Origin: Streptomyces longispororuber
GTDB taxonomy: Bacteria > Actinomycetota > Actinomycetes > Streptomycetales > Streptomycetaceae
Length of the DNA stretch: 64,000 bases
NCBI RefSeq assembly: GCF_014656095.1
Contig: NZ_BNBT01000015.1
Coordinates: 1 to 64,000, forward strand
Reading direction: 5' to 3'
Both the position numbers and the translations under genes were made by a program. The notes below the pieces were generated by a model. That model ran no database searches and had not been told where the DNA came from. It saw only the letters and a program-made list of their open reading frames with translations. Of the stretch, positions 33,197 through 63,873 are shown one piece after another; the stretch's first letter is position 1; each line of letters opens with the position of its first letter.

Positions 33197-33200
33197 CGCG

Positions 33201-35993: not shown

Positions 35994-36006
35994 GGCGCGC
36001 CCCCTT

Positions 36007-45586: not shown

Positions 45587-46567
45587 TCAGAGCCAGCCGA
45601 GCCGGGCGGCCTTGACGCCGGCCTCGAAGCGGCTGCGGGCGCCGAGGCGCTCCATCAGCGCCGCCATGATGCGGCGGGCGGTGCGGTGGGAGATGTGGAG
45701 CCGGCCCGCGGCGGCGGCGTCGGTGCACCCCTGGGCGACGAGCCGGAGCAGCGCCAGTTCGGTGCCGCTCGGGGCGTCGCCAGCCGCGGGCCGGGCGGCG
45801 CCCAGCGGGGTGGCCGACGACCAGGTCTGTTCGAACAGCACGAGCAGCGGGGCGACGAGGCCGGGGTCGGTCACGTGGAGCGCGCCCGCCGCCGGGTCGT
45901 GCGGGTCGGCGGGGACCAGGGCGATTGAGCCGTCGACCAGGGTCAGGTGCGGCAGGTCGGCCTCGCAGGCGCGGAACTGGCCCCCGTTGCCGGTCAGCCA
46001 GTGCACGTGGGCCAGCGTCGCGGCGTCGTAGGAGCCGGTGTCCGTGCCGACGGTGCGGATCGACACCGAGCGGCTCAGCAGCGCCGCGTCGTTGCGGCGC
46101 GACGCCATCAGCTCCGGTGCCGAGCGCGCGCCGCCGGGCCGGAACGTCAGCACCTCGCGGGTGGCCTCCCCGGCCAGGCGGTCCACGCGGCCCTGCACCT
46201 GGTCCCTGCCCAGGAGCCGCTCGACCTGTTCGGCCCTGCCCGACGGGCCGGAGGCCCCGGACATGAGCAGGCCGACGACCTCGGCGTGGGTCTCGGCGAG
46301 CCGCCGCTGCCGGCGCATCAGCTCCTCGTGCTGGCCGGCCAGCGACTGGCGCAGGCTGAGGACCGCGTCCACCGCGGCGAACCCGTCCGGCACCTCGAAC
46401 GAGTGCCGTACCAGGCCGAGTTCGAGCAGCCGGTCGAGGCAGGCGCGGACCAGGTCCGGCGCGAGGGCCAGCCGGTGGGCGATCGCCTCGGCGTCCGGCG
46501 CGGGCGAGGTGCGCGTCTCCCGGTACACCGCTTCTTCCGTCCGTTGCAGTCCGAACATGGTGAGCAT
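45587..46567 (-). CDS. LuxR-type regulator with TrmB-like N-terminus, inside the cluster
   Basis: 326 residues; ATG 46567. The winged-helix N-terminus ([51 protein letters not shown]) is followed by a helical linker, a central domain and a C-terminal LuxR HTH ([53 protein letters not shown]). It has the same domain plan as the TTA-containing regulator at 26563. It sits between the large synthetase gene and mbtH, about 40 bases after the former, so it is likely co-transcribed. No receiver domain is present. Confidence 0.88.
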
Positions 46568-46606: not shown

Positions 46607-49600
46607 TCAGCGCGCGGCTGTCGGCCGCAGCGCCGGGCGGGCGGGCCGGGCGGTCTCCAGGTACGCGGCGACCCCGGTGACGGTCGGGGCCCGGAAGAAC
46701 GCGCGGACCGGCAGCTCACGACCCAGGGCCGAGCGCACCCGGGCGATGAGCTTGGTCGCCAGCAGCGAATGCCCGCCCAGGGCGAAGAAGTTGTCGTCGA
46801 CGCCGACCGAGTCCAGGCCGAGCACCGCGGCGAACAGCTCGCCGAGCACCTCTTCGCGCTCCGTACGCGGTCCGGTGGCGGCCGGTGCCGCGTCCCGCGC
46901 CGGAGCTGCCGGAGTCGCCGGATCCGCCGGAGTCGCCGGAGCCGGGTGCGCGGTGGCGGCGGGGGCCGGCCGGTCCTGGACGGGGGGTACGTCGAGGTCG
47001 GCGACCGGCCGCTCCGGGTCCCGAGCGGCCTGGGTGAGCAGCCGGCGCAGGCCGTCCGCGAGCCGCTCCCCCGTCGCGGCGTCGAACAGCGCGGTCGCGT
47101 ACGTGAGGGCGCCGGCCAGACCGGCCGGTGCCCCGTCCGGGTCGAGCCGCTCCTCCACGTCGACCACCAGGTCGAACTTCGCGGTGGTCGACTCCACCGG
47201 CCGCTCGGCCGCCCGCAGCCCGGGGAAGGCGGGCCCATCGGTCGCGTGCTGGAGCTGGACCATGACCTGGAACAGCGGGTGGCGGCCGGGTGAGCGCGGC
47301 GGGTTCACCGCTTCGACCAGCCGCTCGAACGGGACGTCCTGGTGCTCGTAGGCCGCGAGGGCGGTGGCCCGGACGCGGCGGAGCAGCTCCGCGAAGCTGG
47401 GGGTGCCCGAGACGTCGGTCCGCAGGACCACCGTGTTGACGAAGAACCCGACCAGGTCGTCGAGCGCGCTGTCCGAGCGGCCCGCCACCGGGGTGCCGAT
47501 CGGGATGTCGGTCCCCGCGCCCAGCCTGCTGAGCAGCGCGGCGCAGCCGGCCTGGACCACCATGAACAGGGTGCAGTGGTGCTCCTTGGCGAGCGCGAGC
47601 AGGTCGCGGTGGAGGGCGGGGCCCCACTCCACGGCCACCGACCCTCCCGCGGCGTCGGCGACGTCGGGCCGGGGCCGGTCCGTGGGCAGGGCCAGTTCCA
47701 CCGGCAGGCCGTCCAGTGCGGCCCGCCAGTGGCCGAGCTGGCGGGACAGCAGGCTGCCCGGGTCGTCCTCGTCGCCGAGGAGGTCCCGCTGCCACAGCGC
47801 GTAGTCGGCGTACTGCACCGGCAGGGCGCCCCACCGGGGGGCCTCGCACCGTGTGCGGGCGGCGTAGGCGGTGGAGAGGTCGCGCAGCAGCGGTCCGAGC
47901 GACCAGCCGTCGCAGACGATGTGGTGGAACACGAGCAGCAGGAGGTGGTCCTGCGGGCCCGTCGTGAACAGATGCGCCTTCAGGGGTGGTTGGGCGGCCA
48001 GGTCGAAGCGGTGGTCCGCGGCGGCGCGCACCGCCGCCTCGACGTCGGCCTCGGGCACCTCGCGGCGCACCAGCTCCGGCCGGGCCTGTCCCGGTGCGAG
48101 CACCGACTGCACCGGCCCGTCGCCCTGCTCGACGAAGACCGTCCGCAGGCTCTCGTGCCGGTCACTGACGTCGGCCAGGGCCCGCGCGAGGGCCTCCCGG
48201 TCCAGCGGCCCGGTCAGCCGCAGGGCGACGGGCAGGTTGTAGCTGGTGCCCGTCTCCTCCCACTGGTTGAGGAACCACAGCCGCTGCTGGGCGTGGGACA
48301 GCGGCAGGGCGTCGGGGCGGTCTGCCGCCCGGAGCGCGGGCCGGGCGGGCAGCATGTCGTCGAGGCTCTCCGCGAGGCCGGCCACGGTCGGGGTGGCGAA
48401 CAGCAGCCGGACCGGCAGCTCCACGCCGAGGACGGAGCGCGCCTTGCCGCTCAGCCGCACCGCCAGCAGGGAGTGGCCGCCGAGGTCGAAGAACCCGTCG
48501 TCGATGCCCACCGTCTCGCGGCCGAGCACGTCAGCGAACAGCCCGCACAGGAGTTCCTCGCGCGGGTCGCGCGGCGCGCGCCGGGTGCCGGTGGGGTACG
48601 TCGGCCGCGGCAGCGCGGCGCTGTCCACCTTGCCGTTGGGTGTCAGCGGCAGTTCGTCGATGACGACGACCGCGGCGGGCACCATGTGGTCCGGCAGGTG
48701 CTGCCGGGCGAAGTCGCGCAGGCGCCGCGCGTCGAGTGCGGTGTCCCGCGCGAGCACGTACCCGACGAGGCGCTTGTCCCCGGGGTGGTCCTCGCGGAGC
48801 ACCGCCACCGCGTGGGCGACGCCCTCGTGGCGGGCCAGGGTCGCCTCGACCTCGCCGAGTTCGACCCGGAAGCCGCGGATCTTGACCTGGTCGTCGGCGC
48901 GGCCGAGGAACTCCAGCGCGCCGTCGCCGGTCCACCGCACCAGGTCACCCGTGCGGTACATGCGCCGGCCCGGGGCGAACGGGTGCGCCACGAACCGCTC
49001 CGCGGTCAGGCCGGGACGGTTGACGTAGCCGCGCGCCACCTGGGCGCCCGCGACGTACAGTTCGCCGACCACGCGCGGCGGGACGGGCCGCAGTCCCTCG
49101 TCGAGCACGAAGGCGTCCACCCCGGCGATCGGGCGGCCGATGAGGGGCCGGTCGCTCTCGTCGGACGACCAGAAGCACGTGTCGACCGTGGTCTCGGTCT
49201 GCCCGTAGATGTTGTAGACCGTGACGCCCTCGGTCTCCCGGAGGCGTGCCCACAGCTTCTCGCCCACCGTCTCCGCGCCGGTCATCACCACCGCGGGCGG
49301 TGTCCGGGCCGGGTCGAGCATCCCCTGCCGGATCAGCTCCTCGGCGTAGCTGGGCATCACGTCCAGGGCGTCGATGCCGCACCGGTCCAGGTACCGGGCC
49401 ATGGCGGCGGGGTCGCGGCGGGTGTCGTCGCCGATCAGGTGCAGCTCGTGGCCCACGGCCTGCCACAGCAGGCCGACGACGGAGGTGTCGAAGGAGAGGG
49501 ACGCCGTCAGGGCCATCCGGCAGCGCCGGGAGCCGCGGTTCCGCTCGGCGGTCGCGATGACCTCCGTACGGTAGAACGCCAGCAGGTTGGCGAGCCCGCC

Positions 49601-52600
49601 GTGGGTCACCACCACGCCCTTGGGGCGGCCGGTGGACCCCGAGGTGTACACGACGTAGGCAGGGTGGTCCGCGGCGACAGGTGTCCTCGGTTCCGCCGAC
49701 GGCTCGTCGTCGGGCGCGGGGGCGTCGACGAGCACCGGGTCGCGGGCGGGCAGCGACGGGGCGGACGCGCTGTCGGTGACGACCAGGGCGGCGCCGGAGT
49801 CCTCCAGGAGATAGGCGATCCGCGGAGCCGGGTACGCCGTGTCGACGAACAGGAACGCGGCGCCCGACTTCAGCACGGCCAGCAGCGCGACCACCAGGTC
49901 CGTGGACCGGGGCAGGGCCACCGCCACCACCCGGTCGGGGCCCGCGCCCCGGTGCGCGAGGCGACGGGCGAGGCGGGTGGCGCGCGCGTCGAGTTCGGCG
50001 TAGGTCAGCGCGGTGTCCTCGAAGACCAGCGCGGTCGCGTCCGGCGTACGGGCGGCCTGTGCCTGGAACGCGTGGGGCAGGAACGGGGACGGCTGCGCGG
50101 GCGCGGGGGCCCCGGGCAGGAGGCGTTGCCGCTCCTCGGCCGAGAGCACGTCGACGGCGCTGATCGGCCGGTCCGGGGCGGCGAGCACCTGTTCCAGGAG
50201 TCGCCGCAGGCGTGCCACGAGCTGTTCGGCGGTGGCCCGGTCGAACAGCTCGTCGGCGTATTCCAGGTAGCCGGTGAGGCCGGCCGGCGCGCCCTGCGCG
50301 TCGCGTTCGTCGACCAGTTCAAGACTGAGGTCGAACTTGGCGACGTCCCAGTCCACCGGGGCCCGCTCGGCCACCAGGCCGGCGAAGTCCGGGGCGGTGG
50401 TGTCGGCGTGCTGCACCTGGACCATGACCTGGAACAGGGGGGTGCGGGACAGCGACCGCTCGGGCCGCACCTCCTCGACGAGGCGCTCGAACGGGACGTC
50501 CTGGTGGGCGAACGCCTCCAAATCGGTCTCCCGGACCCGCCGCAGCAGTTCGGCGAAGGCGGGGTCGCCCGCGGTGTCGGTGCGCAGCACCAGGGTGTTG
50601 ACGAAGAACCCGACCAGGTCGTCGAGCGCGCTGTCCGTCCGGCCCGCCACCGGGGTGCCGAAGGGGATGTCGGTGCCCGCGCCCATCCGGGTCAGCAGCG
50701 CCGCGAAGCCCGCCTGCACCACCATGAACAGCGTGCAGCCGGCGGACCTGGCGAGGTCGAGCAGCCCGGTGTGCAGCTCCGGTCCCCAGTCGACGGCCAC
50801 GGTTCCGCCGGAGTGTGCCGCCACCGCGGGGCGCGGCCGGTCCACCGGCAGCGTCAGCTCCGCGGGCAGACCGGCCAGTCGCCCGCGCCAGTAGTCCAGT
50901 TGGCGGCTGAGCGGGCTCGCCGGGTCCGCCGCGTCGCCGAGCAGCTCGGCCTGCCACAGCGTGTAGTCGGCGTAGCGCACCGGCTGCGGCGGCCAGACGG
51001 GGGCGGTCCCCTCGCGGCGGGCGCCGTACGCCACGCCCAGGTCCCCCAGCAGCGGGCGCAGGGACCAGCCGTCGGCCGCGATGTGCTGGACGACCAGGAG
51101 CAGCACCTGCTCCTCGGGGGCGAGCCGGAACAGCGTGGCCCGCAGGGGCGCGTCCCGCGTGAGGTCGAAGCGGTGCCGGACCCGCTCGGTCATGGCGTCG
51201 GCGAGGCCGGACGGCGCCACCTCGACGACCTCGATCCCGGGCACCGCGTCGAGCGGCACCGGGCGCGGCTCGCCGCCCTCGTCGGGGAAGACCGTGCGCA
51301 GGCTCTCGTGCCGCCGCGCGACGTCGGCGAGCGCCCGCGCCAGGGCGTCGTGGTCCACCGTCCCGGTGAGCCGGACCGCGACGGGCACGTTGTACGTGCC
51401 TTCGCCGCGCTCCATCCGGTTCAGGAACCACAGCCGTCGCTGGGCGGACGACAGCGGCACGGGGTCCGTCCCCGCCCGGGCGGTCAGCGCCGGGCGCGCG
51501 GCGCCGGTCAGCCGGGCCAGTCCGGCCGCGGTGGGCGCGGCGAACAGGTCCCGGATCTCGAACCCCTCGCCCAGGGCCGACCGGATCCGGGAGAGCAGCC
51601 GGAGCGCGAGGAGGGAGTGCCCTCCCAGGTCGAAGAAGTCGTCGTCGATCCCCACGCGGTCCACGCCGAGCACGTCCGCGAAGAGGGAGCACAGGATCTC
51701 CTCGCGCGGGCCGCGCGGCTCCCGGGCGGCGCCCGCGGTCCGGTCGGGCTCCGGCAGGGCGGCACGGTCGAGCTTCCCGTTCACCGTCGTCGGCACGGCC
51801 TCGACGAGGACCACGGCCGCGGGGACCATGTACTCGGGCAGGCTCTCCGCGGCGAACCGGCGCAGCTCCCGCTCCGTGAGGCTCCCGGAGCGGGCCACGG
51901 CGTACGCGACCAGGCGCGGGTCGCCCGGCCGGTCCTCCCGGAGGACGACCGCGGCCTGGGCCACCTCGGGGTGGCCGGCGAGCACGGCCTCGACCTCGCC
52001 GGGCTCCACGCGGAAGCCCCGGATCTTCACCTGCGCGTCCGCGCGGCCGACGTACTCCAGCTCCCCGTCGGCGGTCCACCGGACCAGGTCACCGGTCCGG
52101 TACATCCGCTCCCCCGCCGCGAACGGGCAGGCCACGAACCTCTCGGCGGTCAGTCCGGGCCGCCCGGTGTAGCCCCTGGCGAGCTGGACCCCGCTCAGGT
52201 GGAGCTCGCCCACCACGCCGGGGGGCACCGGCCGCAGCGCGCCGTCCAGCACGAACGCCGACACGTTGGCCAGCGGCCGGCCGATGGGCACCGTACGCCT
52301 CTCGTCGCCACGGCGGCACGCCCAGTGGGTCGCGTCGACGGCGGCTTCGGTGGGGCCGTAGAGGTTGTGCAGCTCGGTGGTGGCGAGCGTGGCGAACAGC
52401 GCGCGCTGCGTCGGCGCGGGCAGGGCCTCGCCGCTGCAGACGACCAGGCGCAGGCCCGTGCAGCGGGCCGCGGCGGGCTCCTGGAGGAAGGCGTGCAGCA
52501 TGGGCGGCACGAAGTGGGTGACGGTCACCGCCTCGCGCCGGATCAGGTCGGCGAGGTAGCCGGGGTCGCGGTGTCCGCCGGGCTCCGCGACGACCAGGGC

Positions 52601-54598
52601 CGCGCCGGAGATCAGCGGCCAGAAGAACTCCCAGACCGATACGTCGAAACCGGCCGGGGTCTTCTGCAGCACCCGGTCGGCGCCGGTGAGCCGGTACCGC
52701 TCCTGCATCCACAGCAGGCGGTTGACGACGGCCGCGTGCGGGACCACGACGCCCTTGGGCCGCCCGGTGGAGCCGGAGGTGAAGATGACGTAGGCGGGGT
52801 GCGCAGGGCGCGGCGGCACCGGCCGGGCGGGGGCGGACGCGGCCGGCTCGTCGAGCTCGTCGAGCAGCAGCCGCGGCGGGGAGGCGGGCAGGGCCCCGGC
52901 GCTCCGGGTGTCGGTCAGGACGAGGAGCGGCCCGGCGTCCTCGACCATCGCGGCGATCCGCCCGGCGGGGTGGTCCAGGTCCAGCGGCAGGTAGGCCGCG
53001 CCCGCCCTGACCACGGCGAGGACCGCGACCACGAGCTCCACCGACCGGGGCAGCGCCACGGCCACGACCCGCTCGGGTCCGGCGCCCGCGTGGGCGAGCC
53101 GCGACGCCAGCCGGTCCACGCGCGCGGCCAGCTCGGCGTAGGTCAGCCGCTCGCCGGCGGCCACCAGGGCCGTGGCGTGCGGCGTGCGCCGGACCTGCTC
53201 GGCCCACAGCTCGGCGAGCGTCACCTCGGGCAGCGCGGCCGCGGTGTCGTTCCACCGCCGTACGACCAGGTCGCGCCGGCCGGGCGTCAGCAGGGTCAGC
53301 GCGGCGAGCGGCCGGTCCGGGTCCGCGGCCACCTGTTCGAGGAGCAGCCTGAGGCGCCCGGCGATGTCGGCCGCCTCGGCGGCGGTGAACAGGTCCGGGC
53401 GGTGGTGCAGGCGCAGGGAGAGCCGCTCGCCCGGTTCGACGGCGAGGGTCAGCGGGTAGTGCGCGCTGTCGCGGAAGGTGACGCCGACGTGGAGGTCGCC
53501 GTCGGGCGAGTCGACCTGGTAGTCGTGCATCGGGAAGTTGTCGAAGACGACGTTGGTGTCGAAGAGCGCGGTGGGGCACCCGGTGAGGCGCTGGATGTCC
53601 GTCAGGCCGAGGTGGTCGTGGTCGAGCGACGCGGCGCGTCCCGCCTGGATCTGCTCGAACAGCTCGCTGACCGTGGCCGCCGGGTCCAGGCGCACCCGCA
53701 CCGGGACCGTGTTGATGAGCATCCCGATCATCGCGTCCGCGCCGGTCAGCTCCGCCGGGCGGCCGCTGACCGTCGAGCCGAACACGACGTCGTCGCGCCC
53801 GGTGAGCGAGCCGACCAGGACGGCCCACACGCCCTGGCACACCGTGTTGAGCAGGACGTGGTGGTGCCGGGCGTACGCGGTGAGCAGGGCGGTCGTCTCC
53901 GCCGGCAGCAGCACCGCCACCTCCTCGGGCGGCGGTCCCGTCCGGGTGTCGGCGGGCGCGACGGAGGTGGGCTCGTCGACCCCGCGCAGGGCCGCCGCCC
54001 AGTGGCGCTCCGCGGCGGCCCGGTCCTGTGCCGCCAGCCACGCCAGGTAGTCCCGGTACGGGCGCACCGGCGCCAGGCCGGTGGTGCCGCCCCCGCGGGA
54101 GTACACCGCGAACAGCTCCTGGAACAGCAGGGCGAAGGACCAGCCGTCCAGCAGGAGGTGGTGGGCGGTGACGAGGAGCCGGTGGCGGCGGGCGGTGTGC
54201 CGGGCGAGGGTGAACCGGATCAGCGAGGACCCGCCGACGTCGATGCCCCGCGCCCAGTCCCGCTCGGTCAGTTCGGCGAACCGCTCCCGCGCGTCGCCCT
54301 CCCCGTCCAGGTCCACCTCCCGCCAGTCCAGGGGGGCGTCGCGGCGGACCACGCGTATCGGTTCGCCCGACGCCCGGTGGCGGAATCCGGACCGCAGCGT
54401 GGCGTGGCGCCGTAGCACGGTCTCCGCGGCCGCCTTCAGGAGCGCGGTGTCCACCGGCCCGTCGAGGTCCACCGCGAATTGCGCGAGATAGGGGCTGTGT
54501 TTTTCCCGGTCGAACGACGCGTGGAAGAGCAGCCCTTCTTGCAGGGGCGACAGGGGAAGGACGTCCTCGACCACTGATCGGCTCATTTTCCGTGCCAC
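46607..54598 (-). CDS. NRPS, C-A-T-C-A-T-C-T with A-less third module
   Basis: 2663 residues. GTG 54598 lies 4 bases after the T-E gene stop; ATG 54586 is an alternative. Module 1: C ([23 protein letters not shown]-type signature fitting the upstream E domain), A, T ([14 protein letters not shown]). The A1 code D-V-W-H-V-S-L-V-D-K is a clear serine code. Module 2: C (QHIAADGWS), A, T. The A2 code D-T-V-D-V-T-I-V-D-K is not one I can assign; its A5 reads YGQTETT. Module 3: C (HHIVCDGWS), then a Pro/Ala linker of about 45 residues where an A domain should be, then T ([16 protein letters not shown]). The third residue must be loaded in trans. There is no E or TE domain, and chain transfer goes to the C domain of the terminal synthetase. 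Confidence 0.96.
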
Positions 54599-54602: not shown

Positions 54603-56387
54603 TCAGATAGCCCGCAGTTCGGATTCGATTTCTTCGAGTTCGTGCTGGCTGAGCGAGCTCAGGGTCAGGTCGGACGGGGTGAGTCCGCCCGCTCCGGGTT
54701 CGCGGGCGTGCGTGACCAGGAGCCGCAGCATCCGGAACCACGTCGCGGCCAGCTCGCGGGTGTCCGCCTCGGACACGACGCTGTCGGCCCAGGTCCAGGT
54801 GGCGCGCAGCACCGGGCCGTCCGCCCCGTCCACCGTGGCCGCGTTGACCTCGACGCTGTGGGCCATGGGCATGCCGGGCCCGGTGCCGTCCAGGCCGGTG
54901 CCGTACTCCGGTACGACCGACCAGTCGGCGTCGTCCGGGACCGCGAAGCGGCCCAGGTAGTTGAAGACGAACTCCGGCCGGGCCGCCTGCTCCAGGAGCG
55001 GTCGGGTGTCCGGGTCCAGATAGCGGAGGATGCCGTACCGGACCCCCTTGTCGGGGATGCCGCGCACCTGCTCCTTGACGCGCTTGACCGCGGCGCCCAC
55101 GGCGGGCCCGGCGGCGTCGACCTCCGCCCGGTCCAGCTCCCCGAGGTCGAGCCTGACCGGGAACATGCTGGTGAACCAGCCCACGGTCCGGGACAGGTCA
55201 AGGTCCCCGAGCGCGCTCTCGCGGCCGTGGCCCTCCAGGTGCAGCAGCGCGGTGCCGTCGCCCTCCGTGCCGCGCCGGCGGTGCCAGTCGTCCAGCGCCA
55301 GCGCGAGACCGGTGAGGAGCACGTCGTTGATGTCGGCGTGGAACAGGGCGGGGACCGTGGTGAGGATCTCCTCCGTGACCTCGGCCGGGAGGGACTCGGT
55401 GAAGCACCGGTCCTGGCTCTCCAGGTCGCGGCCGGGCACCCGCGCCCGGTCGCCGAACCGGGCGGCGCCGGGGCGCAACCGGTCGAGCCAGCCGGGGAGT
55501 TCGCCGACGCAGGACCGGGCGCGTGCCTGCTCGCCGAGCACGGCGGACCAGCGGCGGAACGAGGTCGGCACCGGGTCGAGGGCGATCGCGGTGTTCTCCT
55601 CGACCGCCCGCCAGGCCGTCGCGAGGTCGGCGGCCAGGACGCGCCAGGAGATGGAGTCGACGGCCAGGTGGTGGACGACCAGCGCGAGCAGGCCCCGGCG
55701 TCGCGGTCCTGCGTCGCACCACACGGCCTGGAGGACGGTGCCCTCGCGCGGGCGCAGCCTGTCGCGCGCCGCGTCCGACTCCTGCCGCACGAGTGCGGGC
55801 CAGTCGTCCTCGGGGTGCTGTGCCACGTCGACCCGCCGGACGGCCGTGGCCGCGTCGACCGCGCCCGCCGGCAGGGTCTCCAGGGCCCAGTCCCCCGCGC
55901 CGCCGCGCACGGTGAGGCGCAGGCGCAGGGCGTCGTGGTGGTCGAGCAGGGCCTGGGCCATGGAGACGAGGTGCGGCTGCGTCAGTCCGGCGGGGGTCCG
56001 CAGGACCGCGAGCTGGTGGTAGGTGTCCACCCCGCCGCCGCGCTCCCGGAACCAGTGCGCGATGGGGGTGGTGACGACCGGTCCCACCCCGTTGTCCGCG
56101 ACGGGCGGCGGCTCCCGGTCGACCGGGGTGGCCGCCTGTGCCAGTGCCTCCATGTCCCGGTGCGTCAGCACGTCGCCGACGGCGATCCGCAGACCGGCCT
56201 TGCGCGCCCGGCTGACGAGTTGCATGGCGATGATGCTGTCGCCGCCGAGCGCCACGAAGCCGTCGTCGAGCCGGACGTCGTCCACCCGGAGCACGTCGGC
56301 GACCAGTTCGCACAGGAGACGCTGGCGCGCGGTGACCGGAACGCGCCCGGCGTCACCCGCATTCGGTGCATCGAAAGGGCTGGTCAC
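54603..56387 (-). CDS. NRPS T-E didomain (starter)
   Basis: About 594 residues from GTG 56387 (GAGGGA upstream); ATG 56399 is also possible. The carrier domain (residues about 20-90, [21 protein letters not shown]) is followed by a full epimerisation domain: [53 protein letters not shown] and [10 protein letters not shown]. No A domain is present, so the first residue is loaded by a free A domain and epimerised here. The next protein begins with a DCL-type C domain, consistent with a D-configured first residue. Promoter sequences lie in the divergent gap on the right. Confidence 0.95.
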
Positions 56388-56610: not shown

Positions 56611-58014
56611 GTGACAATCCAGCAACCGGCCCGGTCGGTGGCCGACCTCGCGATGTTCGGCGGCGCCCGAGCCGTACCCAGGGAGCTGCGGATCAGGCCC
56701 TGGCCGAGGGTGACCGAGGAGGACGAGCAGGCGGTCGGGCGGGTGCTGCGCTCCGGCCGGTTCACCTCCGCCTCGTCGGGGGAGCGGGAGATCGCGGGGC
56801 TCGAGCGGGAGTGGGCACGGCACGTCGGCACCGGGCACTGCGTGGCGGTGAGCAACGGCACCGCGGCGCTGTCGGTCGCGCTGGGCGCGGTGGGCGTGGG
56901 CGCCGGTGACGAGGTCGTCGTGCCCGCCCTGAGCTTCATCGGCAGCGCCATCGCTCCGCTGCACCTCATGGCCGTGCCGGTGTTCGCGGACATCGACCCC
57001 GTCACGTTCAACCTGGACCCCGCGGCGTTCGAGGCCGCGATCACGCCCCGCACCAAGGCGGTCGTCGTGGTCCATCTGCACGGCCTGCCCGCCGACCTGG
57101 ACCGGATCACCGCGATCGCCGCCCGGCACGGGATCGCCGTGGTCGAGGACGCCGCGCAGGCGCACGGCGCGCGGTACCGGGGCCGGGCGGTGGGCTCGAT
57201 CGGCGCCGCGAACACCTTCAGCCTCAACGTCAGCAAGAACCTCGCCACCTGCGGCGAGGGCGGCCTGATCACGACCGACGACGCGGACGTGGCGACGCGG
57301 GCGACCATGCTGCGGCAGTTCGGGGAGCTCATCCCGGCCGACGGCGACCGCAGTTACGTGGCGCACCTGCTGGGCTGGAACTGCAAGCCGAACGCCGTGC
57401 AGGCGGCCTTCACCCGCAGCCGGCTCACGCGCTTCCCCGCCGAGGCGGCCGTCCGCGAGGAGAACGTCGGCCGGCTCCTCGGCCGCCTCGCCTCCTGCCC
57501 CGGCTTCCTGGTGCCCGAGGTCCCGCGGGACCGCACCCACGCCTGGCACATCCTGCGCTTCCGGGTGGACCCCGCCGCCTTCGACCTCGCCGACGCGTTC
57601 GCGGGCCCGCTGCGCGCCGTCGTCCAGCGGGCCCTGCGTGCCGAAGGGGTGCCCGCCGCGCCCTACCAGCTCCAGCCGCTGCCCGCGCAGCGGGTGTTCA
57701 CCGAGCGGCGCGGGTTCGGCGGCGGCCACCCCGGCGACGTCCGGTCGCTGCCCGGCGTCGTGGACCGCCCCTACCGCGCCGAGGACTACCCGGCCACCCT
57801 GCGGGTCCTCGACGACTCCTTCACCCTGCAGAAGGCGCATCTGCACCCGGAGGCGGGGCCGTTGCTCGACCGGTACGCCGACGCGTTCGAGAAGGTCTGG
57901 GAGCACCGCGACGCACTGGCCGCCGTCGCCGCGACGACGGCCCACACGCCGCACTGGGAGCGCGCCTCGCGGATCGCCGACGCCGAGTGGTCCGCGGCGT
58001 TCCCGGGCCGGTGA
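56611..58014 (+). CDS. DegT/DnrJ/EryC1/StrS-type PLP aminotransferase
   Basis: 467 residues from GTG 56611, with GAAGAGG upstream. PLP enzyme with Lys209 in FSLNVSKNLATCGEGG; phosphate and ring contacts are in VSNGTAALSVALGAVGVGAGDEVVVPALSF and VVEDAAQAHGARYRGR. About 70 residues longer than usual at the C-terminus. Such enzymes aminate keto sugars or similar polyols. In the AmCP pathway of vazabitide A an aminotransferase converts the transketolase product (5,7-dihydroxy-6-oxo) to the 6-amino compound. This gene faces the transketolase and carrier operon, 16 bases from its end, so that role fits well (inference). Confidence 0.92.
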   Translation: MTIQQPARSVADLAMFGGARAVPRELRIRPWPRVTEEDEQAVGRVLRSGRFTSASSGEREIAGLEREWARHVGTGHCVAVSNGTAALSVALGAVGVGAGDEVVVPALSFIGSAIAPLHLMAVPVFADIDPVTFNLDPAAFEAAITPRTKAVVVVHLHGLPADLDRITAIAARHGIAVVEDAAQAHGARYRGRAVGSIGAANTFSLNVSKNLATCGEGGLITTDDADVATRATMLRQFGELIPADGDRSYVAHLLGWNCKPNAVQAAFTRSRLTRFPAEAAVREENVGRLLGRLASCPGFLVPEVPRDRTHAWHILRFRVDPAAFDLADAFAGPLRAVVQRALRAEGVPAAPYQLQPLPAQRVFTERRGFGGGHPGDVRSLPGVVDRPYRAEDYPATLRVLDDSFTLQKAHLHPEAGPLLDRYADAFEKVWEHRDALAAVAATTAHTPHWERASRIADAEWSAAFPGR

Positions 58015-58030
58015 CCGCGGCGGTGGCGGT

Positions 58031-58993
58031 TCAGGCCGGCAGCCGCCGCGCCTGGACCGCCACCGCCGCGGCGGAGATCCCGTTGCGCGCCAGGAGGTGG
58101 CGGTGCCCGCCGGTGCCCGCGGCGAACCGGTCGGCCACCGCCACCCGCCGTACCGGGCAGGCGACGCCCAGCTCGGCCACGACCTCGGCCACGGCGGAAC
58201 CGAGGCCCCCGGCCGCCCAGTGCTCCTCGACGGTGACGATGCCGCGCGTGCGGGTGGCGGCCGTGACGATCGCCTCCCGGTCGAGCGGTTTGACCGTGTG
58301 CATATTGAGCACGGCCGCGTCGATGCCGTCGCCTGCCAGCTCGTCGGCGGCCTCGGCCGCGGCGAGCACGGGGTGGGGTCCGGTGGCGATCAGCGTCACG
58401 TCGGCGCCCCGGCGCAGGGGCTGCGCGACGCCGATCCGCACCGGCTCCCGCGCGTCGAGGTCCGGCGTCGCGCCGCGCCCCAGGCGCAGGTAGACCGGTC
58501 CCGGCAGCTCTGCGGCGGCGCGCACCATGCTCTCGGTGGCGGGGCCGTCCGCGGGGACGAGGACCGTCATGTGCGGCAGCAGCCGCATGAGGGCAAGGTC
58601 CTCCAGCGCGTGGTGCGTGGAGCCGAGGTGGCCCGCGGAGAGCCCGCCGTGGGTGGCGACGATCCGCACCGGCAGGTCGTTGTAGGCGATGTCGAGCTTC
58701 ACCGCCTCCAGCGCCCGGGTGGCGGCGAAGGTCGCCATGGTGTTGACGAAGGGGATCCGGCCGGACCTGGCGAGGCCCGCCGCCACCCCCATCAGGTTCT
58801 GTTCCGCGATGCCGAGGTTGAGGTAGCGCCGCGCGCCCCCGCCCCACGAGGCCGCGGTGAACAGACCGGTGTCGCTGTCCAGGCACACGTAGCGGTCGTC
58901 CTCGGCGACCAGCTTCACCAGGACGTCCCGGTACACCTCCCGGGCGGCGCGCGTCTGCTCCGGCGCGGTGCGTTCGGCTGTCACGACGGACAT
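58031..58993 (-). CDS. Transketolase, C-terminal subunit
   Basis: 320 residues; ATG 58993. Pyrimidine-binding and C-terminal transketolase domains: DSDTGLFTAAS, RYLNLGIAEQNLMGVAAGLARSGRIPFVNTMATFAATRALE with the catalytic Glu in GIAEQN, GLSAGHLGSTHHALEDLALMR and VEEHWAAGGLGSAVAE. It pairs with the separate N-terminal subunit upstream. Split transketolases in secondary metabolism transfer two-carbon ketol units. In the AmCP pathway the acceptor is carrier-bound glutamate semialdehyde. It is the last gene of the operon. Confidence 0.94.
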   Translation of the reverse strand: MSVVTAERTAPEQTRAAREVYRDVLVKLVAEDDRYVCLDSDTGLFTAASWGGGARRYLNLGIAEQNLMGVAAGLARSGRIPFVNTMATFAATRALEAVKLDIAYNDLPVRIVATHGGLSAGHLGSTHHALEDLALMRLLPHMTVLVPADGPATESMVRAAAELPGPVYLRLGRGATPDLDAREPVRIGVAQPLRRGADVTLIATGPHPVLAAAEAADELAGDGIDAAVLNMHTVKPLDREAIVTAATRTRGIVTVEEHWAAGGLGSAVAEVVAELGVACPVRRVAVADRFAAGTGGHRHLLARNGISAAAVAVQARRLPA

Positions 58994-59012
58994 GTGTCGT
59001 CTCCGTTCAGGG

Positions 59013-59138
59013 TCGTCGGCTCAGGGGCGTCGGCTCGCGGGCGTCGGCCCAGGCGCGTCGGCTCAGGGGCGTCGGCTCAGGGGCGTCGGCTCAGACGCGT
59101 CGTTTCGCGGGCGTCGGCTCAGGCGCGTCGGCCGCGCG
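59013..59138. repeat. Nine tandem 14-bp units covering the stop of the transketolase N-subunit gene
   Basis: Fourteen-base units of the type GCGTCGGCTCAGGG fill the gap between the two transketolase genes; the ninth is degenerate. The TGA (59119-59121, minus strand) is within a unit. On the minus strand the core TGAGCCGACGC differs by one base from the core of the 11-bp array at 28860-28991. Confidence 0.9.
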
Positions 59139-59928
59139 TCACCGCCGCGTGGGCACGCCGGTGCCCGCGCTCGGTGAGCCGGACGTAGTGGCTGCGGGCC
59201 TGGCCTTCGATGTAGGGCAGGCCCTTGCCCTTGACCGTGCGGGCCAGCACGACGGTCGGTCGGCCGGGGGTGTGCGGGACGTCCGTCAGGGCCGTCCGCA
59301 CCTGGTCCGTGTCGTGCCCGTCGACCTCGCGCACCGTCCAGCCGAAGCTGCGCCAGCGGTCCGCCAGGGGTTCGAGGGCCACGGTCTCCTCCGTGTCGCC
59401 GCTGATCTGGAGCCCGTTGCGGTCCACGATCGCCACCAGCCGGTCCAGCTTCTGGGCGCCGGCGGCCATCGCGGCCTCCCAGACCGAGCCCTCCTGCAGT
59501 TCGCCGTCGCCGAGCACGACGAAGCACCGCCGGTCGCTGCCGTCCAGGCGGGCGGCGAGGGCGAAGCCGACGCCGAGCGGCAGTCCGTGCCCGAGCGACC
59601 CGGTGGGCATCTCGACCCCGGGGACGGCCGGGTTCGGGTGCGCGGTGAAGACGCTGTCCGGGGCGCCGTAGGTGGCCAGCCGCTCCTCGGGGAAGAAGCC
59701 GCGCCCGGCGAGGACGGCGTACAGTCCGATCGCGCCGTGGCCCTTGCTCAGCAGGAGGATGTCCCGGTCCGGGTCCCGCGGCAGCCGCGGGTCGATCCGC
59801 AGCACGTCGTGGTAGAGGGTGACCAGGATCTCGACCAGGGACATCGATCCGCCGAGGTGGCCGCCTTCGGGGTTGGCGCACATGCGCACGATGCGTTCCC
59901 GTGCCCTGCGCGCGTGGTCGTCGCTCAT
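59119..59928 (-). CDS. Transketolase, N-terminal subunit
   Basis: 269 residues from the ATG at 59928, overlapping the lysK-like stop by 4 bases (ATGA). Thiamine-diphosphate domain: GGHLGGSMSLVEIL, LSKGHGAIGLYAVLAG, TGSLGHGLPLGVGFALAAR and the Mg-binding VVLGDGELQEGSVWEA with DRNGLQ. The C-terminal subunit gene follows after a 14-bp repeat array. It supplies the C2-transfer chemistry for the carrier-bound substrate. Confidence 0.94.
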   Translation of the reverse strand: MSDDHARRARERIVRMCANPEGGHLGGSMSLVEILVTLYHDVLRIDPRLPRDPDRDILLLSKGHGAIGLYAVLAGRGFFPEERLATYGAPDSVFTAHPNPAVPGVEMPTGSLGHGLPLGVGFALAARLDGSDRRCFVVLGDGELQEGSVWEAAMAAGAQKLDRLVAIVDRNGLQISGDTEETVALEPLADRWRSFGWTVREVDGHDTDQVRTALTDVPHTPGRPTVVLARTVKGKGLPYIEGQARSHYVRLTERGHRRAHAAVTRGRRA

Positions 59929-60989
59929 CGGCCCTGCCTGGTGAAGTGCCCGTCCAGTTCGGCCAGCGCCCGGGTGAGCACCCGGATGCCGAACAGGTAC
60001 TCGGGCAGTCGGATGTGTTCGTGGTCGGAGTGGTCCAGGCCGCTGTCGCCCGGGCCGTAGGTGGCCATGGGTGTCGTCCACTCCTCCGCCAGGGTGTTCA
60101 TGTCGGAGGTGCCGGTCTTCACCTTCGCCCTCGGGCTGCCGCCCTGTGCGCGGATCGCGACCGTAAGGGCCCGCGCCACGGGGTCGTTGCGGCCGACGCG
60201 GCAGGCGCGCACCGCGTTGACGACCTGGAGCGTGCCCGGGGCCGTCCGCTTCTCCAGCGCGGCCACCAGGCCGTCGCCGTCGAAGCCCGGGGGGACGCGG
60301 ATGCTGAACTCCGCGCCGGCGGAGGTCAGTCCGCCCTCGATCGACATCAGGGTCGGGCCGGGTGCGTCGAACCGGGCATGGCTCGCCTCCGGGCCGAGCA
60401 GGTCCAAGAGCTCCGTCCACGCCCGGGCCGCCAGCTCGGAGGCCTTGGGCACGACGTTGCTGGGGTGGGTCGCCTCGCACCGCACGTCGTAGCGGAGGTC
60501 GATCTTTCCCTTGTACCCCAGGACGACCGTGTCGCAGCCGCTGGGCTCCCCGATGACCAGCGCGTCCGGCGGCTCGTGCGTACGGCGGATCTCCACCGCG
60601 CCCCGGGACAGCGAGGTCTCCTCCTCCACCGCGCCCACCACGACGACGCGGCCGCGGAACCCGGTGCTCGCGGCGGCCGCGCAGATCATCGTGGCGAGCG
60701 GCCCCTTGGCGTCGACCGCGCCCCTGCCGTACAGGCGGTCGCCGACTCTGCGCACCGGGACGTCCCCCGGCACGGTGTCCATGTGCCCGAGCAGCATCAC
60801 CGTCGGTCCGGGGCCGCGCCGGATCTCCCCGACGGCGTTGCCCGCCGCGTCGATCCGCGCGGTGAGACCGGCTCCGCGCATGGCGTCCACCACGTAGCCG
60901 GCCAGCTCGGACTCCGCGTACGACGGTGAGGGGATCCGCAGCATGCCGTGGAGCAGGTCGACCGCGGCCGGGGCGGGATACGTCGTCAC
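59925..60989 (-). CDS. lysK: LysK/ArgE-type carboxypeptidase releasing amino acid from the carrier protein
   Basis: 354 residues from GTG 60989, overlapping the kinase stop as GTGA. An M20 zinc peptidase: [49 protein letters not shown] and the C-terminal [15 protein letters not shown]. LysK relatives cleave the isopeptide bond between LysW and the finished amino acid. In this operon it probably releases the diamino product from the AmCP. It belongs to the LysK branch rather than ArgE because of its company. Confidence 0.92.
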
Positions 60990-61807
60990 TCCTCCTCCAG
61001 GAGCACTTCGGTGCCCGAGCCCGCCAGGGCCTCCCGCACCGGGTGCGGCCGTCGGCCGTCGGCGATCAGGACGCGGCGCGCGCCGGCCAGCAGCGCCTCG
61101 CGCGCCGCGACCAGCTTGATGCCCATGCCTCCGGTGACCACCGGGGGCGTGCCCCGCCGGGGAACGCGGCAGACGGGCAGCACGGACCGTTCGTCGTGCC
61201 GGTCGGCCAGCACCCCGCTCGCCCCGGTGAGCAGGACGAGGGTGCTCGCCCGGACGGCGCCCGCGACGGCCGCGGCGGCGCGGTCCGCGTCCGTGTTGAC
61301 CACGCGGCCGTCCCGGTCCATGGCCGGTGGCGACACCACGGGCAGCAGGCCCGCCGTGAGCAGCGTGGCCAGCAGGTCGCCGTTGACGTCGACGATCCGT
61401 CCGCTGTGGTCGTCCCTGACCACGACCCGGCGTCCGCCGACGAGGGCCCGCTGCGCCGGCTTGCGCGCGGCCACGAGGAGCCCGGCGTCCAGGCCGGTCA
61501 GCCCGACCGCGTCGACCCCGCGGGCGCGCAGCTCGGTCAGGAGCCGGGGTTTGACGGAGCCGGCCAGGGCGAGCTGCACCACTTCGAGCGTGCGCTCGTC
61601 GGTGTACCGGGTCGACACCCCGTCCGGGGCGACGAGCCGGCGGGAGGGCACGCCGAGGCGTTCGGCGAGGCCGTCGATGTCGGCCGAGCCGCCGTGGACG
61701 AGGATCACCTGCCTGCCGCCGCGGTGCGCGGCGGCGACGTCCGCGCAGATCTCCTCCGACCGTACGGCGGCGTTGCCCCCGCATTTGACCACGAGTATGT
61801 CCCGCAT
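60986..61807 (-). CDS. lysZ: LysZ/ArgB-type amino-acid kinase acting on carrier-bound glutamate
   Basis: 273 residues from the ATG at 61807. Amino-acid-kinase fold: ILVVKCGGNAA at the N-terminus, VILVHGGSADIDGLAERLG, GLTGLDAGLL, INTDAD-like VVNTDADRAAAAVAG, LLTGASGVLADR and TGGMGIKL. It phosphorylates the side-chain carboxyl of an N-protected glutamate or aminoadipate. Here the protecting group is the carrier protein. It lies 19 bases after the reductase gene and overlaps lysK. Confidence 0.92.
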   Translation of the reverse strand: MRDILVVKCGGNAAVRSEEICADVAAAHRGGRQVILVHGGSADIDGLAERLGVPSRRLVAPDGVSTRYTDERTLEVVQLALAGSVKPRLLTELRARGVDAVGLTGLDAGLLVAARKPAQRALVGGRRVVVRDDHSGRIVDVNGDLLATLLTAGLLPVVSPPAMDRDGRVVNTDADRAAAAVAGAVRASTLVLLTGASGVLADRHDERSVLPVCRVPRRGTPPVVTGGMGIKLVAAREALLAGARRVLIADGRRPHPVREALAGSGTEVLLEEE

Positions 61808-61826
61808 GCGCTTGATCGACCTCACG

Positions 61827-62858
61827 TCAGTTCGGGTGCAGTCCGGGGAATTCGAGACCCGTCCGCTCCGGCCAGCCGAAGCGGACGTTGAGGCATTGCA
61901 CCGCGCCGCCGGCGCCGCCCTTGACGAGGTTGTCCAGGGCGCCGACGAGGACCACGGTGCCGTCGTCCGCAAAGACCGCGAAGCCGACGTCGCAGTGGTT
62001 GGAGCCCGTCAGGATCTTCGGCTCCGGCAGCCGGTACAGGCCCTGGCGCCGGGCGACGACCCGGACGAACGGCTCGTCCGCATACGCCGCATGGAACGCG
62101 GCCCGGACGTCCCGCTCCGAGGCGCCGGGCGCCAGCTTCGCGTGGCACACCACCTGCACGCCGCGGACCGCCTCGACGCCGGTGGCGGTCATCCGTACGG
62201 TGTGCCCCGTGGCCTGGGCGATCTCGGCCTCGTGGCGGTGCCGGGAGGGGGCGAACACCCTTAGGGCGCCGCTGCGTTCGGCGTGCGCGGCGGCGGGCCC
62301 GCCGGAGGCCCCCGATCCGCTGGACCCGGTGCGGGCGTCCACCTGGACCGGGCCCTCGATCAGACCGGCCTCGGCCATCGGCCGGACCGCGAGGATCCCG
62401 GCGGTGGCCATGCACCCGGGTACGGAGATCCGGTCGGCGGCGGCCAGTTCGGCGCGGTGCCACTCCGGCAGCCCGGTGGTGAATCCGGGGATCAGGTGCG
62501 GCGCGGTGTGCGGGACTCCGTAGTACGCCGCGTAGGTGCCGGGGTCGCGCAGGCGGAAGTCCCCGGACAGGTCGATGACGGTCCCGGCCAGCGTCAGGTA
62601 GCCGGCCATCCTTCCCATCGTCTCCCGGTGGGGCGCGGCCAGGAGGAGCACGTCGGCTCCGGCGTCCTCGACGGCGTCGTGGCCGACGAAGCACAGGTCC
62701 GTGTGGCCGCGCAGGTTGGGGTGCGGGCCGTCGACCCGGCGCCCGGCGAGGCGGTCGGACGTGGCGGCCACGACCGTGACCCGTGGATGGCCGTGCAGCA
62801 GGCGCAGCAGCTCGCCGCCGATGTAGCCGGACGCCCCGACGATCGCTACGCGGAGCAT
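61827..62858 (-). CDS. lysY: LysY/ArgC-type N-acyl-glutamyl-phosphate reductase
   Basis: 343 residues; ATG 62858. NADPH site VAIVGASGYIGGELLRLL, catalytic Cys149 in SVPGCMATAGIL and family pattern FAPSRHRHEAEI. The C-terminal GALDNLVKGGAGGAVQCLNVRFGW is typical of ArgC/LysY. It reduces the acyl phosphate to the semialdehyde. Its start overlaps the lysX end by 13 bases, so all steps of the carrier route are translated together. Confidence 0.93.
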   Translation of the reverse strand: MLRVAIVGASGYIGGELLRLLHGHPRVTVVAATSDRLAGRRVDGPHPNLRGHTDLCFVGHDAVEDAGADVLLLAAPHRETMGRMAGYLTLAGTVIDLSGDFRLRDPGTYAAYYGVPHTAPHLIPGFTTGLPEWHRAELAAADRISVPGCMATAGILAVRPMAEAGLIEGPVQVDARTGSSGSGASGGPAAAHAERSGALRVFAPSRHRHEAEIAQATGHTVRMTATGVEAVRGVQVVCHAKLAPGASERDVRAAFHAAYADEPFVRVVARRQGLYRLPEPKILTGSNHCDVGFAVFADDGTVVLVGALDNLVKGGAGGAVQCLNVRFGWPERTGLEFPGLHPN

Positions 62859-63712
62859 GGGTGTTCCTTCGTCAGGAGGTGGTCGACGATCCGGTCGGCG
62901 ACGGAGACGGTGTCGCCGAGGGCCTGCTGGAGGCCGGAGAACTCGACGCCGTGGTTGACCTCAAGGACGAGCGTGGCTCCCGTCCCGTCCTCGATCAGGT
63001 CGACGCCGGCGATCTCGGCCTCCACGGCCTGCGCGGCCGAGACCGCGAGCTTCGCGATGTCCGGTGTGAGGGCGCAGAGTTCGCTCACGGCGCCCCGGGC
63101 CACGTTGGTCCGCCAGTCCTCGCTGCGCCGGTAGGTCGCGGCGACGGCCTCGCCGCCCACCACGACGACCCGGATGTCCCGCCCCGGTTTGGCGATCCAC
63201 TCCTGCAGGTAGACGATCCGGGCCTGCGGCGAGGGCAGGGCGGCGACGTACTCCAGGACGGTCTCCGCGGTCCGCCGGTCCGGCAGCGCGGCGACCAGGC
63301 GTCCCCACGAGCCCTGCAGGGGCTTCACCACGGCCGGGTAGCCGAGGGTCTCCAGAGCCGTCAGCGCCGCTTCCGGGGTCAGCGCGAGGGCCGTGCGCGG
63401 CGTCGGGAGCCCGGCCCCGGCCAGCGCCGCGGAGGTGCGCCACTTGTCCCCGCACAGCTCGGTGGCGCGCGCCGAGTTGACCACCGTCGCGCCCGCGGAT
63501 TCCAGCGCGTGGGCCGCGTACGTCGCCCTGGCGAGCCCGATCTCCCTGTTCAGGACGGTCGGGCGGGGGCCGAGGTCGCCGAGCTCGTGCCACCACCGGC
63601 GGCTGTCGACGTGCTGGTGGGCGATCCTCCTGCGCCCGAGGGCTTCGAGGATGTGCTTCTCGCTGGCCCGTACCCGGGAGGCGAGTACGGCGAGGGGCAC
63701 GGTGCGGCTCAC
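62846..63712 (-). CDS. lysX: LysX-type ATP-grasp ligase (carrier protein-glutamate ligase)
   Basis: 288 residues from GTG 63712, overlapping the LysW stop as GTGA. RimK/LysX ATP-grasp fold: ALESAGATVVNSARATELCGDKWRTSAALAGAGLPTPRT, YPAVVKPLQGSWGRLVAAL, YLQEWIAKPGRDIRVVVVGGEAVAATYRR and LVLEVNHGVEFSGLQ. It joins the alpha-amino group of glutamate (or aminoadipate) to the C-terminal Glu of LysW. The pairing with LysW here identifies it as the AmCP-loading enzyme. Confidence 0.94.
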   Translation of the reverse strand: MSRTVPLAVLASRVRASEKHILEALGRRRIAHQHVDSRRWWHELGDLGPRPTVLNREIGLARATYAAHALESAGATVVNSARATELCGDKWRTSAALAGAGLPTPRTALALTPEAALTALETLGYPAVVKPLQGSWGRLVAALPDRRTAETVLEYVAALPSPQARIVYLQEWIAKPGRDIRVVVVGGEAVAATYRRSEDWRTNVARGAVSELCALTPDIAKLAVSAAQAVEAEIAGVDLIEDGTGATLVLEVNHGVEFSGLQQALGDTVSVADRIVDHLLTKEHPCSA

Positions 63713-63873
63713 TCGCCCCAGTCCTCTTCGATCTCCGGGGCGAGCGCGGCCCGTACCGGGTCCAGCGTGAGGATCTCCAGCTCGCTGGCGCACTCGCCGC
63801 ACTCCACGATCTCGCCGATCACCGGTGTCGCGGCGGGAACCACCGCGCTCTCGCATTCAGGGCAGGTGACCAT
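63709..63873 (-). CDS. lysW: LysW-type amino-group carrier protein (AmCP)
   Basis: 54 residues from the ATG at 63873, with AAGGA upstream. Zinc knuckle with Cys4/Cys7 (TCPEC) and Cys25/Cys28 (VECGECASE), acidic body and the diagnostic C-terminal EDWGE, whose last Glu accepts the substrate amino group. Too short for routine gene calling but unmistakable. It is the first gene of an operon encoding loading, kinase, reductase, release and transketolase functions. Primary lysine biosynthesis in Streptomyces uses the DAP route, so this copy is for secondary metabolism. Confidence 0.95.
   Translation of the reverse strand: MVTCPECESAVVPAATPVIGEIVECGECASELEILTLDPVRAALAPEIEEDWGE

Follow-up and report, generated by a model that had tools for sequence, protein, structure and literature searches.

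What is made from 2,6-diamino-5,7-dihydroxyheptanoic acid (DADH) when the genes for its formation are kept but those for its conversion into an azabicycle or aziridine are missing? This question is raised by a stretch of 64,000 nucleotides from Streptomyces longispororuber, here called the window, which comprises bases 1–64000 of the 87,793-bp contig C15 (NZ_BNBT01000015.1) in a genome of 9.08 Mb. At positions 56611–63873 it carries a cassette of eight genes around an amino-group carrier protein (AmCP), located beside the genes of a nonribosomal peptide synthetase (NRPS). The cluster is a real and conserved AmCP/DADH variant without the azabicycle module, and with a probability of roughly 70% we believe that AmCP-made DADH enters a hydroxylated NRPS product of about five residues that contains neither an azabicycle nor an aziridine.

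A sequence-only reading of the window had recognized LysW, LysX, LysY, LysZ and LysK together with two transketolase subunits and an aminotransferase, and all eight genes are indeed found there, each with a Pfam match above the curated cut-off. All but the aminotransferase gene lie on the reverse strand. LysW (63709–63873, 54 amino acids; PF21344, 41.8 bits with a cut-off of 27) shows both CxxC pairs of the zinc ribbon and the C-terminus as they had been read (CPEC...CGEC...EDWGE), and it is the sole LysW match in a profile search of the genome. It is followed by the ATP-grasp ligase LysX (62846–63712, GTG start; RimK 108.5 bits, LysX_preATP_grasp 41.1 bits), the LysW-glutamyl-phosphate reductase LysY of the ArgC family with a PGCMAT motif (61827–62858; Semialdhyde_dh domains, Semialdhyde_dhC_1 132.3 bits), the LysW-glutamate kinase LysZ of the ArgB family with a KCGG motif (60986–61807; AA_kinase 118.2 bits) and the M20 hydrolase LysK with GHMD...DAKGP...EEE (59925–60989; Peptidase_M20 89 bits). 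The transketolase is split into two separate genes as claimed, one for the N-terminal subunit TK-N with the thiamine diphosphate domain and a GDG motif (59119–59928; PF00456, Transketolase_N, 145.9 bits) and one for the C-terminal subunit TK-C with a GIAE motif (58031–58993; PF02779, Transket_pyr, 108.7 bits and PF02780, Transketolase_C, 92.3 bits). The DegT/DnrJ aminotransferase, a relative of Fic25, is encoded on the forward strand (56611–58014; PF01041, 292.3 bits), and its lysine K209 for pyridoxal phosphate (PLP) in SKNLATCGEGG is unchanged across 14 aligned sequences. For all of these motifs (PGC, KCGG, GHMD...DAKGP...EEE, GDG, GIAE and the PLP lysine) we presume the usual meanings. The proposed coupling through the operon holds in part: there are overlaps of 4 bases at LysW/LysX, LysZ/LysK and LysK/TK-N and of 13 bases at LysX/LysY, but gaps of 19 bp between LysY and LysZ and of 125 bp between TK-N and TK-C show that the coupling is not continuous, and the aminotransferase gene is located on the opposite strand.

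The assignment of this set to DADH formation is well supported by homology, namely by identity and structural similarity of the predicted aminotransferase to Fic25 and by the trees. The aminotransferase is 57.2% identical in a local alignment to PDB entry 8gyh, Fic25 from ficellomycin biosynthesis, which reached 509 bits in the PDB search with the next chain at 197.5 bits. Its AlphaFold model (mean predicted local distance difference test score, pLDDT, 87.3) superimposes on 8gyj with Z 50.6 and a root-mean-square deviation of 1.7 over 428 residues, and the next other protein after Fic25 has Z 44.5. As the 8gyh sequence is equal to the aminotransferase of our locus L053 over 429 residues, we took genome G210 as S. 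ficellus and L053 as part of the ficellomycin cluster. The vazabitide-type (2S,6R)/(5R) stereochemistry that had been assumed before is not supported in the same way: 8gyj, an entry of the closest solved aminotransferase, is titled as Fic25 from S. ficellus with the adduct of PLP and (5S,6S)-N2-acetyl-DADH. Grouping of LysX with primary enzymes had been named beforehand as the finding that would speak against the assignment. This was checked, on a small scale, in a LysX tree for which two solved primary-type chains served as the outgroup and L042, L045, L091 and L092 were dropped. No such grouping was seen, and the LysX of the window fell among LysX proteins from clusters, in a clade of 26 rows (support 95).

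An AmCP route to DADH is described for vazabitide A and s56-p1 (PMC9303977), and for azinomycin the cited text gives a two-carbon extension by a transketolase pair and then an aminotransferase, with sulfation and aziridine formation later (PMC9570651). From the genes present we infer the following reactions and their order. LysX would load glutamate onto the C-terminus of LysW, LysZ would phosphorylate and LysY reduce the LysW-bound glutamate to the semialdehyde, and the split transketolase would add two carbons to it. The Fic25-like aminotransferase would then aminate C6 and LysK would release DADH from LysW. Free DADH could be activated via an acidic pocket by one of three adenylation (A) domains, called A2, A3 and the stand-alone A below, for a chain of about five residues starting on a didomain of a thiolation (T) and an epimerization (E) domain, and three 2-oxoglutarate oxygenases might hydroxylate DADH or its partner amino acids. 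The AmCP product could also be a different one, if DADH is only an intermediate and is modified by hydroxylation or ring closure before it is loaded, or if another compound of this type is formed. An identity of 57% to Fic25 is compatible with other outcomes, the DADH of vazabitide and of ficellomycin is written with different configurations, and the cluster has three hydroxylase-type genes. However, the expected enzyme is present for every step of the cassette, and the azinomycin route to DADH likewise uses a transketolase pair and then an aminotransferase (PMC9570651), so that we regard a different product as quite improbable.

The proposed loading of DADH depends on the NRPS genes next to the cassette, and these were followed across the genus. 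AmCP loci are common there: a LysW match over the cut-off was found in 55 of the 392 genomes sampled, and in 59 at E ≤ 0.001. The 66 LysW places include 62 over the cut-off, our own among them; leaving out our own and the four places under the cut-off, 61 places in 59 stretches were read. The same cluster occurs in 4 of these 59 stretches (genomes G339, G072, G019 and G123), with 78–82% identity for the T-E protein and 82–94% for the cassette. A scan of named genomes with the aminotransferase alignment adds at least two more, S. netropsis CECT 3265 and S. tagetis RG38, the latter comparison covering 21 kb only. When the T-E protein was searched against 394 genomes of the family, identities of at least 79% were seen only in our own genome, S. 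netropsis (G511), G693 and G072 among the matches listed, the remaining ones of which do not exceed 54%. In total there are at least eight clusters, our own and those of seven relatives, of which two belong to named Streptomyces species and the others come from genomes of this genus.

Two NRPS genes lie closest to the cassette on the reverse strand. The T-E gene (54603–56294, with an uncertain 5' end that may reach to about 56372) encodes PP-binding and Condensation-type domains but no A domain and is 78–84% identical in 7/7 relatives; from a 10-residue motif we take its second domain to be an E domain. The large NRPS protein (46607–54574) has the order C-A-T-C-A-T-C-T, C being condensation domains, with codes DVWHVSLVDK for A1 and DTVDMGIVDK for A2, and is 77–85% identical in 7/7 relatives. 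Cassette, T-E protein and large NRPS protein are retained together in 8/8 genomes with 77–94% identity, and the T-E gene adjoins the aminotransferase gene in each of them.

The absence of a sulfotransferase from the window, already noted in the sequence-only reading, was borne out and can be extended to the rest of contig C15 beyond 64000, to the whole genome for three families and to the stretches of the seven relatives (21–77 kb). The cassettes of the S. ficellus locus and of S. eurocidicus (G302) are accompanied by CysC (adenosine 5'-phosphosulfate kinase), CysD, CysN, a PF19798-type sulfotransferase, a BtrH_N protein and c17, our label for a small unannotated protein of the ring module. 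Using tblastn at E ≤ 1e-3, none of these markers was detected in our own contig (88 kb) or in the stretches of G339 (75 kb), G019 (77 kb), G123 (57 kb), G072 (70 kb), G693 (53 kb), S. netropsis (40 kb) and S. tagetis (21 kb). The sole match in the last three of these stretches, 27% over 95 residues in S. tagetis, was to an ATP-grasp ligase outside the module set. As the marker set contains the S. ficellus and S. eurocidicus proteins, their 100% rows arise by construction, and independent identities come from blastp, in which queries from other loci find CysC, CysD, CysN, BtrH_N, c17 and PF19798 in the S. ficellus locus with 37–79%. Neither the BtrH_N nor the c17 gene that stand beside the aminotransferase gene elsewhere are present on our contig. 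A profile search of our whole genome gave no match for PF00685, PF19798 or PF13469, and PF19798 is found in 5/5 module-bearing genomes vs 0/5 genomes of our own family (own, G339, G019, G123 and G072). With the module absent from the cluster and the three sulfotransferase families absent from the genome, DADH would stay without aziridine or azabicycle, and it is reasonable to expect that it is open-chain or otherwise cyclised. Ring genes lying just past 64000 were considered and rejected, as a regulator, a small open reading frame (ORF), a GNAT acetyltransferase, a glycosyltransferase of family 9 and others follow there.

LysY and both transketolase parts were found at 57 loci. Our own family accounts for 6 of them and a distant LysW group without any marker for 10, which leaves 41 others. 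Of these 41, 32 have at least one marker, 21 have a sulfotransferase and 9 have none, as counted from stretches of up to about 21 kb that include two near-duplicate pairs. Thus, module-free DADH-type cassettes are not confined to our own family. One of the nine is found in genome G173 (contig C19; L184, L049 and L185), where a large multi-module NRPS cluster surrounds a DADH-type cassette that is 61–73% identical to ours, and over 59 kb no sulfation/azabicycle marker was found in it. The distant second group of LysW, transketolase and aminotransferase genes, mostly with 30–47% identity, comprises 14 stretches (L067–L071, L074, L077, L079, L081, L085–L088 and L090). All 14 encode a small protein that weakly matches DegT, 12 of the 14 also encode an ATP-grasp amino acid ligase, and no sulfation marker is labelled in them.

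In a concatenated tree of the cassette (52 rows, careful search) our own family forms a clade of 7 with support 100/100, which together with S. eurocidicus and G173 makes up a clade of 9 (100/100). An inner clade of 28 rows encloses these 9, and in it 20 of the 21 loci outside our own family have a sulfotransferase gene. Forcing those 20 sulfotransferase loci together against the rest was rejected (approximately unbiased test, p-AU 9e-7), the group having been named after the tree was seen. From the concatenated and the aminotransferase trees 10 of the 14 members of the distant LysW group were dropped, and from the concatenated tree also rows with fewer than 4 of the 5 genes. G693 is in no tree, and the near duplicates L035/L117 (identical) and L046/L110 were kept in the counts. 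As our own clade nests within a sulfotransferase-bearing one, the ring module has probably been lost or left behind. The same nesting would suit an alternative in which DADH is still made into an aziridine or azabicycle by enzymes unlike the sulfation module, with another leaving group or unclustered genes, and the oxygenases and thioesterases of the cluster could do unforeseen chemistry. We consider such a ring unlikely, given a genome without the three sulfotransferase families, module markers in neither our contig nor the relatives' stretches, and a conserved block with no N-acetyltransferase among its Pfam annotations.

If DADH is loaded as such, the NRPS should have an A domain for it. 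In A domains for ornithine and lysine the side-chain amine is bound by an acidic residue, which is located at position 3 or 4 of the code (PMC10522769). Such a residue is present at these positions in A2, in A3 (code DTEDLGLLDK) and in the stand-alone A domain (code DMEFSAQVVK), and one of these three is the candidate for DADH loading as judged from the codes. The nine-letter code of A2 is identical in 7/7 clusters read and that of A3 in 5/5, and A2 and A3 are sister domains in the A-domain tree. A1 presumably is of the serine type. The code of the stand-alone A domain resembles that of proline A domains, DVQFIAHVVK. It is also similar to DMEHNGTVSK, the code given for ornithine in PMC10522769. 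Besides the T-E protein, the terminal C-T of the large NRPS protein has a carrier domain without an A domain, and in G123 the stand-alone A domain is the only one outside modules. The product chain would comprise about five residues and begin with a D-residue. DADH might even be placed at more than one position, because A2, A3 and the stand-alone A have acidic pockets, A2 and A3 are sisters, and a single stand-alone A faces two carriers without A domain (T-E and C-T). A polycationic peptide family, from which the ring module was dropped and in which the gene sets of a variable slot give a natural series of analogues, is a tentative and rather doubtful extension of this idea; if true, the analogues would share a scaffold that has DNA-damaging agents among its relatives.

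A domains with DVFDFGGVA or DVFDFGGVT codes recur in AmCP loci of several genera (14 domain rows in 11 loci: L039, L041, L043, L065, L075, L106, L107, L109, L111, L112 and L116, with one L043 domain counted twice). These domains form one group in the tree (97), and in the stretches covered for L065 and L075 LysW is the only gene of the cassette. As a candidate signature, the code might mark A domains for DADH or its ring form.

The remaining genes of the block also fit the earlier description of a five-protein NRPS and several oxygenases beside the cassette: the NRPS proteins are T-E, C-A-T-C-A-T-C-T, C-A-T-TE (TE for thioesterase), A-T and A, and the oxygenases are of the PhyH, 2OG-Fe_Oxy_2 and Asp_Arg_Hydrox types. 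Following the large NRPS gene, and on the reverse strand unless stated otherwise, come a LuxR-type regulator (45587–46567; GerE 25.7 bits, cut-off 23.5), which is 77–85% identical in five relatives and has as sole match in G123 one of 42% located elsewhere, an MbtH-like protein (45156–45368; PF03621, 97.3 bits), a stand-alone thioesterase (44323–45093; PF00975, 111.2 bits) and the last NRPS protein, C-A-T-TE with A3 (40341–44312), which is 77–85% identical in the 6 relatives with this stretch covered. Its gene overlaps by 4 bp with that of an exporter of the major facilitator superfamily (MFS; 39064–40344, MFS_1 125.7 bits). The Asp_Arg_Hydrox 2-oxoglutarate oxygenase (37964–38953; PF05118, 60.6 bits) shows a weak match to the L-proline cis-4-hydroxylase 4p7w (E 6e-4), and the 2OG-Fe_Oxy_2 oxygenase (37118–37894; PF10014, 97.6 bits) is of the isoleucine-4-hydroxylase type (8w8h 54.5 bits, 6lnh 43.4 bits). 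The PhyH-family 2-oxoglutarate oxygenase (30487–31287; PF05721, 129.2 bits) matches 7e01/7dzz with 224 bits, chains that we take to be trans-proline hydroxylases, and then the leucine hydroxylase 5nch with 184 bits; its structure prediction (pLDDT 35.6) was not used. The PhyH gene overlaps by 4 bp with that of the stand-alone A domain (28973–30490, 84–89% in the 6 relatives with the stretch covered). At the end of the block there are a small conserved protein (27674–28159; no Pfam match at E 1e-5), which is 70–86% identical in the 7 relatives and located at either end of the block in them, and a LuxR-type regulator on the forward strand (26563–27642; GerE 34.4 bits, 80–88% in the 7 relatives).

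Wherever the stretch is covered, the LuxR and small genes (26563–28159) are conserved together with those for the stand-alone A, PhyH, Asp_Arg_Hydrox, MFS, last NRPS, MbtH, C-A-T-C-A-T-C-T and T-E proteins, the whole cassette and a regulator just outside the window (64129–65511). In the S. netropsis stretch neither the 2OG-Fe_Oxy_2 nor the stand-alone thioesterase gene is matched, and in G339 the thioesterase is matched over only one third of its length, so that both may be dispensable. Beyond the conserved regulator, contig C15 encodes a secreted-looking peptide of 48 amino acids ending in NGDSGWG (65684–65830; L002 5684–5830). Similar short ORFs occur near the conserved regulator or the A genes in several relatives, and the peptide is possibly a signal peptide for regulation. 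Genes for a glycosyltransferase of family 9, a short-chain dehydrogenase/reductase and other sugar- or carbamoyltransferase-like proteins, the latter called by reading the sequence by eye, adjoin the cluster at 67541–86061 (L002, L003), and nothing in the stretches of four relatives matches them well.

Between the PhyH and 2OG-Fe_Oxy_2 genes the cluster has a variable slot, filled in the window (31421–37050) by four genes on the reverse strand. These encode an asparagine-synthase-like amidotransferase (AsnB; 31421–33196, PF00733, 206.9 bits), an NRPS A-T didomain with the code DGTKIGAVCK (33201–34964), a member of the fumarylacetoacetate (FAA) hydrolase family (35145–35993, PF01557, 155.8 bits) and an HMGL-like aldolase (36007–37050, PF00682, 85.6 bits; the PRK08195 aldolase model gives 163.4, below its cut-off of 229). 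An insert unique to our own genome was rejected, as G693 carries the same four genes in the same slot with 81–88% identity (AsnB 88%, A-T 81%, FAA hydrolase 81%, aldolase 83%). In G019 and G072 another A domain and carrier protein are found there, and in G123 and S. netropsis neither gene set. The four-gene unit also occurs separately on contig C39 of our own genome (L200 9055–14858, 59–71% identity) and in G169 (61–72%) and G145 (52–60%; loci among L201, L202 and L203), and G017 has three of the four genes at a contig end. The slot thus seems to take in ready-made gene sets, as its contents differ among relatives and the unit exists elsewhere on its own.

Several points weigh against a DADH-containing peptide without the ring. 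Family models by themselves leave the pathway undecided: LysW (TIGR01206, 47.5 < 53.2) and LysX (TIGR02144, 260.7 < 275.6) stay below the lysine-pathway equivalog cut-offs, and the top NCBIfam model of LysK, [LysW]-lysine hydrolase, reaches 344.7 with a cut-off of 363. LysY and LysZ pass the cut-offs of the arginine enzymes argC (TIGR01850, 329.5 bits, cut-off 233.6) and argB, LysZ also that of [LysW]-aminoadipate kinase (NF010659, 240.2, cut-off 223). Primary arginine or lysine metabolism was nevertheless rejected because of the LysX tree and the scores of LysW and LysX; a separate full-length ArgJ (431 bits) is encoded on contig C150 of our genome. One BtrH_N protein is encoded on our contig C7, and its identity to the BtrH_N proteins from DADH clusters does not exceed 31%; PF13469 proteins are found outside the cluster in the G019, G123 and G072 genomes, and among the relatives the whole-genome sulfotransferase searches covered G339, G019, G123 and G072. 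Loss of the module and transfer of a cassette without it both fit the nested clade, and the slot of G339 contains a stretch of unknown bases. In PMC10940327, where the contig is not named, S. tagetis is listed with an NRPS region at 122,174–185,958 and the entry 'Vazabitide A 19%'. The S. tagetis cassette on contig 4 (156,199–177,578) falls within these coordinates, and the region is probably the cluster of our own family. No product of the cluster family is on record in the open-access papers searched, most subscription journals lying outside this scope, and the DVFDFGGVA/T code is in no A domain of our cluster, so that the case for DADH incorporation is carried by the charge of the pockets. 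Finally, a cluster 54% similar to that of vazabitide gave, after heterologous expression from a cosmid, malevonin and not the expected vazabitide derivative; in malevonin an Ac-Val-Ala part is joined to a scaffold that comes from the host (PMC12690601). This precedent, together with the missing DVFDFGG-type domain, would favour a cassette uncoupled from the NRPS and a peptide without DADH. The joint retention of cassette, T-E and large NRPS protein in all eight genomes and the T-E gene adjoining the aminotransferase gene in each speak against it, and we hold uncoupling to be very improbable.

DADH in an NRPS product without the ring stays our favoured explanation for this family of eight genomes, which has two named members (S. 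netropsis and S. tagetis). Azinomycin, ficellomycin and vazabitide are DNA-alkylating or listed with DNA-damaging agents (including PMC9570651). Our cluster and its close relatives are without genes for sulfate-based ring formation, so their peptide is probably of a different kind, and a family that keeps the DADH cassette but not the module points to another use of DADH. The azinomycin B route is similar in that AziC5/C6, a transketolase pair, and an aminotransferase give DADH, but AziC2 N-acetylates its glutamate first and the acetylated DADH is sulfated and closed to the aziridine (PMC9570651; compared by description). Vazabitide A from Streptomyces sp. SANK 60404, also compared by description, shares the AmCP route to DADH with the carrier Vzb22 (PMC9303977), whereas its DADH, written as (2S,6R)/(5R), enters an azabicyclic structure (PMC9570651). 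The dipeptide s56-p1 from Streptomyces sp. SoC090715LN-17 is likewise the product of an AmCP cluster and assumed to be DADH-derived, but carries a hydrazone unit (C16H26N6O9S; PMC13266690). In the ficellomycin locus of S. ficellus (L053, G210; 20 kb compared, ending inside an NRPS-like gene) LysW, LysX, LysY, LysZ, LysK, the split transketolase and the Fic25-type aminotransferase are 57–64% identical to ours, but it has CysC, CysD, CysN, the PF19798 sulfotransferase, BtrH_N and c17, of which our cluster has none. S. eurocidicus (G302) has, along with G173, the nearest other cassette (LysX, LysY, LysZ, LysK, TK-N, TK-C and aminotransferase 69–78%, LysW 64%), but unlike ours it is combined with the sulfation/azabicycle module and two DVFDFGGVA A domains. 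These neighbouring clades with and without the module offer a comparison for the enzymes that form the azabicycle.

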